Source: a virus. Taken from it: 49,517 nt of DNA. The stretch lies in IMG/VR virus record IMGVR_UViG_3300017763_000026, positions 1 to 49,517 of that record; one strand, written 5' to 3'. Positions 18,676-38,764 of this stretch are shown one piece after another; position 1 is the stretch's first letter; every line of letters begins with the position of its first letter. The translations under genes were made by a program, and so were the position numbers. The notes below the pieces were generated by a model, which saw nothing but the letters and a program-made list of their open reading frames with translations, did no database searches and was not told the origin of the DNA.

Positions 18676-18692
18676 GCCTGGATTCTAACTTG

Positions 18693-18700
18693 TATAAATA
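18693..18700 (+). promoter_or_regulatory. T4-type late promoter (TATAAATA) for the riboswitch transcript
   Basis: Exact TATAAATA. The predicted start site, about 6 nt downstream, falls at the first base of the aptamer stem at 18707, so the RNA would begin with its P1 helix. Confidence 0.85.
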
Positions 18701-18706
18701 ATATTA

Positions 18707-18823
18707 CGTTCACCATAGAAATATGGCGGAAGTAGGATAACCTGAAAACCTCCTGCAATGCATTGTGGGGATAGCAAGTAAGCAGATATGCTGAACGAGA
18801 CCGAAAGTTACCGAAGGAACGCG
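18707..18823 (+). promoter_or_regulatory. Glutamine-riboswitch-like aptamer (glnA / downstream-peptide type) with expanded P3
   Basis: P1 pairs CGTTC (18707-18711) with GAACG (18817-18821). P2 is CCATA-GAAA-TATGG (18713-18726). The invariant-looking core CGGAAGTAGG follows at 18727-18736, and CCGAAGGAACGCG closes the motif at 18811-18823; both match my memory of the glnA RNA consensus. P3 (TAAC 18738-18741 with GTTA 18807-18810) encloses an unusual ~65-nt insert with its own hairpins. Known members bind L-glutamine and occur in cyanobacteria and cyanophages. Ligand binding here is inferred. Confidence 0.8.
18747..18753 (+). promoter_or_regulatory. Anti-Shine-Dalgarno element inside the riboswitch P3 insert
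   Basis: AACCTCC here is perfectly complementary (7 bp) to GGAGGTT at 18876-18882, the ribosome-binding site of the following peptide gene. It offers a direct route for the RNA fold to block translation. Confidence 0.55.
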
Positions 18824-18885
18824 TTGAGAAGGGTGTACGGCTTAGTTCCGTATGTACGAAATCGAAACGAAAACTGGAGGTTGAT

Positions 18886-19050
18886 ATGACTTACTATAGA
18901 GGTATCAAGGCCGAGAAAGTAGCTAAAACAACTTCTTCTAAACAGGAAGAAGGAGTTTATAGAGGCATTTCTTGGAAATCTAAAGATCTAGAAAAGTCAC
19001 CTAAAGCACCAAAAAGCGGAACTTACCGTGGTGTTAAGTGGGTAGCTTAA
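18886..19050 (+). CDS. DUF4278-like small peptide (54 aa) with three YRG repeats
   Basis: A 54-residue basic peptide with three copies of a YRG motif: YYRGIK near the start, VYRGISWK in the middle and TYRGVKWVA at the end. This is the pattern of DUF4278, found in small cyanobacterial proteins including PirA, a PII-interacting regulator of arginine/nitrogen flow. Small DUF4278-type peptides are also typical clients of the downstream-peptide form of the glutamine riboswitch, which lies just upstream here. A strong TGGAGG precedes the ATG by 5 nt. A terminator follows, so it is a single-gene late transcript. A role in tuning host nitrogen signalling is inference. Confidence 0.85.
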   Translation: MTYYRGIKAEKVAKTTSSKQEEGVYRGISWKSKDLEKSPKAPKSGTYRGVKWVA

Positions 19051-19762: not shown

Positions 19763-20209
19763 ATGAATAATTTAGAACAAATCCTTGAAATGTGGAAGAA
19801 AGACTCAGTAATCGATGAGATGAAGCTTGACGAAACTTCCATGAACTCTGCTAAACTACACGCTAAGTATCTAGAAATACTCAGTGTAAATCGTATGAAA
19901 CTTAAAAAGTCTGAAATGGACTTTAAAGTTCTATTGCGAGATAAATTTATGCATTATGGTGGTAAACTATCCCAAGATGAATTAGATTCAAAAGGATGGG
20001 AATATGATCCATTACATGGTAATACAGTACTTAAAGGAGATATGGATAAGTGGTACGACGCTGATCCAGTTATTCAAGAAGCTCAAGCAAAAATAGCCTA
20101 CCTACAAAATATTAATGATACTTTAAAAGAAATATTAGACAATATAAAATGGCGTCATCAAAACATAAAGAATATGATTGAATGGCGTAAATTTACCAGT
20201 GGTATATAA
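19763..20209 (+). CDS. uvsY: Recombination mediator UvsY
   Basis: 148-aa helical, charged protein matching T4 UvsY (137 aa) in size, position before uvsW, and pattern: an N-terminal EILEMWKKDSVIDEMKLDE helix and a C-terminal WRHQNIKNMIEWRKFTSG helix. UvsY loads UvsX on gp32-coated single strands. It starts directly at an early promoter without a Shine-Dalgarno site. Its 3' end overlaps the next gene in another frame. Confidence 0.88.
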   Translation: MNNLEQILEMWKKDSVIDEMKLDETSMNSAKLHAKYLEILSVNRMKLKKSEMDFKVLLRDKFMHYGGKLSQDELDSKGWEYDPLHGNTVLKGDMDKWYDADPVIQEAQAKIAYLQNINDTLKEILDNIKWRHQNIKNMIEWRKFTSGI

Positions 20210-20711
20210 CAACTTTTTAAACGATAAAGAAATAACTCAGATTGGTCTCACATATCCTACGTGGGAACATGGCAAAACAAACGAGCCTTCTGATCTTAGA
20301 ATAGTTCATACTTATGATATAACACATAAGTTAGAATGGTTAGATTTTAAAGTATTAGCATTCGTTAAAAAAATAAATAAAGATTATGGATATGATATAT
20401 CATCTTGGAATGCTATAAATGAAACTAAACTACTTAAATACGATGTTGGTGGTAAATATGACTGGCATCAAGATGTTTTATGGGCTCCGAAAGAACACCG
20501 AAAGTTTACATATATAATACAGTTGACAAATAAAAAAGAATATGAAGGTGGTGATTTTAAATTTAGAGATGCTAAAGTTGACTTGGCTAATGCTGGAGAT
20601 AGAGGAACAATTATAGTGTTTCCATCTTTACTATATCATAGAATTACTCCTCTTACTAAAGGTAGTAGACAATCAATTGTAGGTTGGGTTGTAGGTCCAA
20701 GATGGAAGTAA
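20178..20711 (+). CDS. 2OG-Fe(II) oxygenase
   Basis: Prolyl-hydroxylase-type dioxygenase fold. Iron ligands are H97 and D99 in YDWHQD and H154 in LLYHRITPL, with R163 (GSRQSIVGWV) for 2-oxoglutarate. Such genes are common in marine T4-like phages; the substrate (protein, DNA base or metabolite) is not known. No ATG is available: the start is TTG at 20178 or GTG at 20199, both inside uvsY, so translation is probably coupled. Its stop overlaps the uvsW start. Confidence 0.85.
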   Translation: MNGVNLPVVYNNFLNDKEITQIGLTYPTWEHGKTNEPSDLRIVHTYDITHKLEWLDFKVLAFVKKINKDYGYDISSWNAINETKLLKYDVGGKYDWHQDVLWAPKEHRKFTYIIQLTNKKEYEGGDFKFRDAKVDLANAGDRGTIIVFPSLLYHRITPLTKGSRQSIVGWVVGPRWK

Positions 20712-26129: not shown

Positions 26130-26204
26130 GTTCTCGTAGTTCAATGGATAGAATATCGGTCTTCTAAACCGCTGATACAGGTTCGACTCCTGTCGGGAAC
26201 ACCA
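26130..26204 (+). tRNA. tRNA-Arg (UCU)
   Basis: Full cloverleaf with encoded CCA. The acceptor GTTCTCG pairs with CGGGAAC (one G-U), the D stem is GTTC/GAAT, the anticodon loop CTTCTAA gives UCU, and the T stem ACAGG/CCTGT is perfect. It reads AGA, the Arg codon this AT-rich phage favours. It lies 8 nt after gp46, probably in the same early transcript. The bottom anticodon-stem pair is a T-C mismatch. Confidence 0.95.
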
Positions 26205-38688: not shown

Positions 38689-38764
38689 GGGGCTGTAGCT
38701 CAGTTGGGAGAGCGTTCGGTTTGCATCCGAAAGGTCGTGGGTTCGATTCCCTCCAGCTCCACCA
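38689..38764 (+). tRNA. tRNA-Ala (UGC)
   Basis: Cloverleaf with encoded CCA. Acceptor GGGGCTG/CAGCTCC includes G3-U70, the identity pair for alanyl-tRNA synthetase. D stem GCTC/GAGC, anticodon loop TTTGCAT (UGC), anticodon stem TTCGG/CCGAA. The T stem GTGGG/CCCTC has one T-T mismatch. It begins 2 nt after the upstream stop codon, so it must be processed from an mRNA-type transcript. Confidence 0.95.

Follow-up and report, generated by a model that had tools for sequence, protein, structure and literature searches.

The glutamine riboswitch and its gene setting

The window, that is, the whole stretch of DNA that was analysed, is the virus record IMGVR_UViG_3300017763_000026 of 49,517 bases. 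It carries a T4-like gene set that includes gp23, UvsY and a UvsW-like helicase, together with a gp19 match below its cut-off. The best deposited matches to its gp23 come from Pelagibacter phage HTVC008M (65.4% identity) and Methylophilales phage Melnitz (62.4% identity). A riboswitch lies between gp23 and a tail-tube-like gene, directly upstream of a small gene with YRG repeats. Elsewhere in the window, a 2OG-Fe(II) oxygenase gene (20178–20711) is located between uvsY and the uvsW-like gene, and two tRNA genes are found at 26130–26201 and 38689–38761.

The covariance model of the glutamine-I riboswitch (RF01739) matches positions 18705–18825 with 44.7 bits against a gathering cut-off of 35. 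The family core is present in the form of P1, P2 and the GGAAGUA/GAAGGAAC strands with loop E, a motif described for this family (PMC5393176). The P3 loop of the model has 4 nt, whereas P3 of the window aptamer holds an insert of about 72–74 nt. The window RNA is a member of the RF01739 family, a variant with a long P3, and a short P3 is not needed for the match. The elements of the outer aptamer and of the 3′ side of the leader are as follows.

18707–18711 (+): P1 5′ strand (CGUUC), pairing with 18817–18821; RF01739 alignment
18713–18726 (+): P2 hairpin of the glutamine aptamer; RF01739 alignment, with compensated changes in the aptamers that carry the 97 inserts
18728–18734 (+): GGAAGUA, junction and loop-E strand of the glutamine aptamer; RF01739 alignment
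18735–18741 (+): P3 5′ strand and extension (GG-A-UAAC), pairing with 18807–18812; covariation of the innermost three pairs
18807–18821 (+): P3 3′ strand, GAAG junction and P1 3′ strand (GAACG); RF01739 alignment
18822–18869 (+): P4 module, a CGUU/AACG stem closing GAGAAGGGU-hairpin-GUACGAAAUC; compensated pair changes in the closing stem
18874–18880 (+): CUGGAGG, Shine-Dalgarno sequence and conserved context; ACTGGAG in 95/124 nested and 3/134 short leaders, the latter among the matches listed
18886–19050 (+): small DUF4278 gene of 54 aa with YRG repeats, downstream of the riboswitch; PF14105, E 1.5e-07, 32.1 bits, cut-off 25.3

The RNA resembles the glutamine-I riboswitch (glnA RNA) in P1, P2, loop E, the junction, the nitrogen-linked genes and the DUF4278 genes downstream, and is distinct from usual RF01739 members in its conserved P3 stretch. 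Across 331 aptamers, the spacing from GGAAGTA to GAAGGAAC is 61–102 nt in the long class and 8–16 nt in the short class, the short ones being those among the matches listed; the short-P3 set is a sample, and this scope applies to all of its figures. The long class excludes L008 and L070, whose leaders each contain two complete glutamine aptamers in tandem and pass for long-P3 aptamers when scanned by pattern. Within 18690–18890 of the window, the RF01739 match is single, whereas a tandem riboswitch consists of two complete aptamers of known class in series; no other Rfam family scores above its cut-off there, and three hits lie far below theirs (E up to 10).

Architecture and covariation of the P3 insert

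The sequence-only reading had described P3 as expanded by an insert; its coordinates and letters are exact, and the expansion is conserved among homologues. A pattern for long-P3 aptamers that was blind to insert content matched 75 viral contigs, two of which are the tandem leaders L008 and L070. With these two removed and the window copy added, all 43 distinct aligned leaders contain GAAAACCTC in the insert. With a pattern restricted to the insert, 105 viral contigs were matched. When viral and genome hits were pooled, 97/97 distinct inserts fitted one shared core plan. In its first half, the P3 extension is followed by two spacer bases, GAAAACCUC, the hairpin P2′, GG, one or two bases and AGC(U); in its second half, a loop-E-like AGUA, the hairpin P3′, GAA-C(A), GAGACCGA and two spacer bases lead back to the P3 extension. 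The corresponding elements in the window are given below.

18744–18752 (+): near-invariant GAAAACCUC, containing most of AACCTCC; GAAAACCTC in 95/97 distinct inserts and GACAACCTC in the other 2
18751–18770 (+): P2′ hairpin, with U18751-G18770 and C18752-G18769 invariant, followed by a variable stem; RNAalifold and pair counts
18773–18780 (+): AGCAAGUA, junction and second loop-E-like strand; AGC and AGUA in 97/97
18781–18792 (+): P3′ hairpin; pair counts and the 97-insert comparison
18793–18804 (+): GAAC-GAGACCGA, second loop-E-like strand and invariant 3′ core; GAGACCGA invariant in the 35-row alignment

Pairing was quantified in a 35-row alignment composed of the window and 34 representatives of the 97 distinct inserts, at less than 90% identity. 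The three insert helices place 94.0% of cells in standard pairs, compared with 69.0% in shuffles, and two-sided changes are observed at 10 of the 12 helix pairs; shifting the partner by one column lowers the pairing to 49.4% or 56.2%. P2′ and P3′ were recovered independently by RNAalifold, including the invariant U-G and C-G pairs at the base of P2′. In addition, the extra U in the AGCAAGUA region and the extra A after GAAC coincide, with both present in 23/97 inserts and neither in 74/97. The P3 insert is a conserved, covarying and separately folded RNA domain, with two hairpins of its own and a second loop-E-like module.

The thermodynamic stability of the window leader is not unusual (z –0.38). 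Its minimum-energy structure is a different fold (–41.2 kcal/mol) from the consensus fold (–26.8 kcal/mol), in a model that holds no loop-E or tertiary terms. The nested domain may have arisen from the glutamine aptamer by mutation; the one shared feature that would speak for such kinship is the loop-E-like motif, and motifs of this type are common in RNA. A k-turn reading of the nested core was set aside, as the order of its G-A steps does not appear to fit. A subgroup with a longer P3′ hairpin (L233, L235, L239, L242, L249 and others) has in common an apical motif around GGGUCAAUA, possibly a third layer.

Complementarity between the insert and the ribosome-binding site

The nucleotides AACCTCC (18747–18753) of the insert and GGAGGTT (18876–18882) at the ribosome-binding site show perfect Watson-Crick complementarity over 7 bp, as the sequence-only reading had noted. 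The two 7-mers are paired in the minimum-energy fold of the window leader, and the ensemble probability of this pairing is 0.73 in the identical copy L076. Among dinucleotide shuffles of the window leader, 45/2000 (2.25%) reach at least 7 bp of complementarity with the 18-nt region of the ribosome site, and the match is therefore mildly unusual when taken alone. From this match, the insert had been proposed to serve as an anti-Shine-Dalgarno platform; on this account, its CCUCC would block the ribosome site when glutamine is absent.

The comparison of homologous leaders does not bear this proposal out. We scored Watson-Crick base pairs between ten bases around CCTC and the 18 bases upstream of the start codon, leaving aside 3 of the 182 long rows that lack a readable start (L001, L323 and L324). 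Some match of at least 4 bp within the tested 10-mer occurs in 116 of the 117 distinct leaders, which would suit such a platform, and complementarity of at least 7 bp is seen in 4/117. However, the mean for leaders paired with their own ribosome site is 4.581 bp, identical to the 4.581 bp obtained with shuffled partners, and 589 of 1000 shuffles reach a value as high. The pairing is present in the window fold; an ensemble pairing of CCUC with the ribosome site above 0.5 is found in 12/117 native leaders and likewise in 12/117 leaders whose downstream parts were swapped.

Furthermore, CCTC is retained in all 11 of the 117 leaders that lack GGAGG and, conversely, two leaders with a short P3 and no insert (L108 and L152) retain ACTGGAGG ahead of a YRG gene. 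CCUC belongs to the core of the nested domain, where its U and last C pair with the invariant GG at the base of P2′. Most of the 7-bp match can be attributed to the separate conservation of CCTC and GGAGG. The same near constancy of both strings means that covariation cannot fully exclude the pairing, and since the window fold contains it, anti-Shine-Dalgarno pairing may play a local role in the window leader, without explaining the insert. As an account of the insert itself, we consider ribosome-site closure by CCUCC quite improbable.

Distribution, controlled gene and proposed working

The nested domain is present in more than 100 IMG/VR contigs, and it occurs within glutamine riboswitches. 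A pattern for its 3′ core gave 77 hits, of which 74 lie inside a complete glutamine aptamer; the remaining 3 are truncated at contig ends, and no standalone nested domain was found among these 77. Likewise, all 30 loci fetched (30/30) from SAR86, a group of uncultured ocean bacteria, are nested in a glutamine aptamer. In the genome-contig pattern scan, 38 of 62 hits are full composites, 36 of them on SAR86 or Gammaproteobacteria contigs; the other 24 hits were read as chance matches in coding sequence. The remaining two composites come from MAGs assigned to Halieaceae and Flavobacteriales (L322 and L314), which may represent misbinned viral contigs.

A covariance model of the domain (R2) matched 42 of 199 sampled genomes, with one copy each, in the order of the SAR86 genome G003 that contains L264. 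For the class of G003, 369 genomes were sampled and two of them matched, G003 itself and G021, which the search of the order recovers as well. In the phylum of the Phormidium genome G202, which contains L288, it matched 0 of 386 sampled genomes, under stricter filters and with no positive control in that search. Against 82 mostly short-P3 sources, among the matches listed, the model gave no hit with E < 0.1 and two weak ones (E 0.16 and 0.79). Blast queries with the leader and peptide of the window and with three further nested leaders returned few hits from deposited phages, short and spurious, and no nested element.

In SAR86 genomes, the RF01739 model gives sub-cut-off matches of 26.9–34.7 bits (cut-off 35), and three short-P3 SAR86 copies score above the cut-off. 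The sub-cut-off scores may be the reason why the nested SAR86 copies were overlooked. One nested copy (L264) is located between an Era-like gene and recO, and another (L265) lies beside amtB and a PII gene, whose families were confirmed there. Across the 38 loci, an AmtB relative is found in the stretch examined at 23 and a PII relative at 20.

A YRG gene follows 118/118 testable nested leaders, compared with 36/126 testable short ones among the matches listed; 6/124 nested and 6/132 short leaders, with too little downstream DNA, were not counted. The Pfam DUF4278 score is above the cut-off for some of these genes and below it for others. Both in T4-like marine phages and on the chromosomes of SAR86, the composite riboswitch sits ahead of a small DUF4278 gene. 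In cyanobacteria, DUF4278 spans the N-terminal part of the glutamine synthetase inhibitor IF17, and expression is activated by glutamine in two cases (PMC6316151).

The strict link to YRG genes would fit a protein-binding role for the nested domain, either for the DUF4278 peptide itself (autoregulation) or for a host RNA-binding protein. By comparison, YRG genes also stand under short-P3 aptamers that lack the nested domain, in the 36/126 leaders given above for the matches listed, and we consider this explanation quite improbable.

On the 3′ side of the leader, the P4 module, which shows strong conservation and covariation of its own and is followed by ACUGGAGG, was detected in 79/124 distinct nested leaders and in 0/134 short-P3 leaders among the matches listed. 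We read a CAUC/GAUG-type hairpin around the start region in L202, L213 and short-P3 leaders as a putative second 3′ platform. A conserved leader peptide running through VRNRNENWR (ORF 18788–18889) was considered and dropped; its frame is closed in L014, and P4 varies as paired RNA.

We favor, with a probability of about 0.5, a composite glutamine-I riboswitch whose P3-nested domain serves as an accessory sensor or as an allosteric module, the match between CCUC and the Shine-Dalgarno sequence being mostly a by-product of conserved strings. An accessory or allosteric role is suggested because P3 is reported to be the arm that moves when glutamine binds (PMC5393176). In such a riboswitch, plentiful glutamine would raise translation of the small DUF4278 gene, as reported for other glutamine riboswitches. 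The nested domain would ride on P3, the moving part, and its state, set by a second ligand or a second glutamine, or the extra binding energy that it provides, would tune the P3 movement. This movement would in turn act on the 3′ platform of P4 and the Shine-Dalgarno sequence, with translation of the DUF4278 gene as the output. The conserved core, however, is equally compatible with a docking or protein-binding element, and the preference of the energy model for a different fold of the window leader also counts against an accessory sensor.

A more specific form of the proposal, which we regard as possible and advance tentatively, takes the nested domain for a second aptamer, of a class not yet described and confined to P3 of glutamine riboswitches, so that the RNA would work as a nested two-input gate in SAR86 and in marine phages, perhaps phages of SAR86 itself. 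One input might be glutamine and the other a further signal related to nitrogen or carbon. Alternatively, the nested domain may sense nothing and instead brace the structure, docking on P2 or the P4 module and strengthening a low-affinity glutamine aptamer. The mobility of the P3 arm (PMC5393176) and the occurrence of the P4 module with nested leaders only, among the matches listed, are in line with a brace. However, the strict P4 pattern is missing in 45/124 nested leaders, so that the domain also occurs without P4, and the near-invariant unpaired core positions seem more numerous than a simple brace requires. We consider bracing unlikely.

The nested arrangement was further compared with known systems. 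Tandem glutamine aptamers, counted as 157 doublets and 4 triplets (PMC9481103), also put two or more folded units upstream of a single gene; their units are in series, whereas here the second unit lies inside an arm of the first and does not follow the glutamine-I consensus. Two-ligand tandem riboswitches and allosteric logic gates share the two-input principle with the proposed gate, but their units too are arranged in series, and the word "nested" does not occur in the accessible text of that source (PMC9481103). In its accessible text, a review describes glutamine riboswitches as common in cyanobacteria and restricted to them (PMC6316151), whereas the nested form is found on SAR86 chromosomes and in marine phages. 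The OM43 phage Melnitz and the pelagimyophages, T4-like phages related to the window virus, also have a glutamine riboswitch, and the accessible text on them makes no mention of an insert in it (PMC9004378).

No account of such a P3 expansion was found in the accessible parts of the literature searched. Neither a P3 insert of this kind nor a SAR86 glutamine riboswitch is mentioned in the accessible text of PMC2864571, PMC6316151, PMC9004378, PMC9481103, PMC9964418 or PMC5393176; either may be reported elsewhere, including in supplements.

According to our analysis, SAR86 chromosomes carry glutamine riboswitches, often in a version to which the Rfam model gives a score under its cut-off. Should the nested domain sense a signal, one sensor would be built into the moving arm of another, and a single small RNA might integrate two signals. 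The finding also offers a concrete way into nitrogen control in SAR86 and a clue to the phages that infect this group.

In the SAR86 order, L326 and L327 (from 1503) are ordinary short-P3 glutamine riboswitches ahead of a class-II glutamine amidotransferase gene (Pfam GATase_2 on L326), which looks like the glutamate synthase gene gltB. In L328, a short-P3 riboswitch precedes a circularly permuted ATP-grasp gene.
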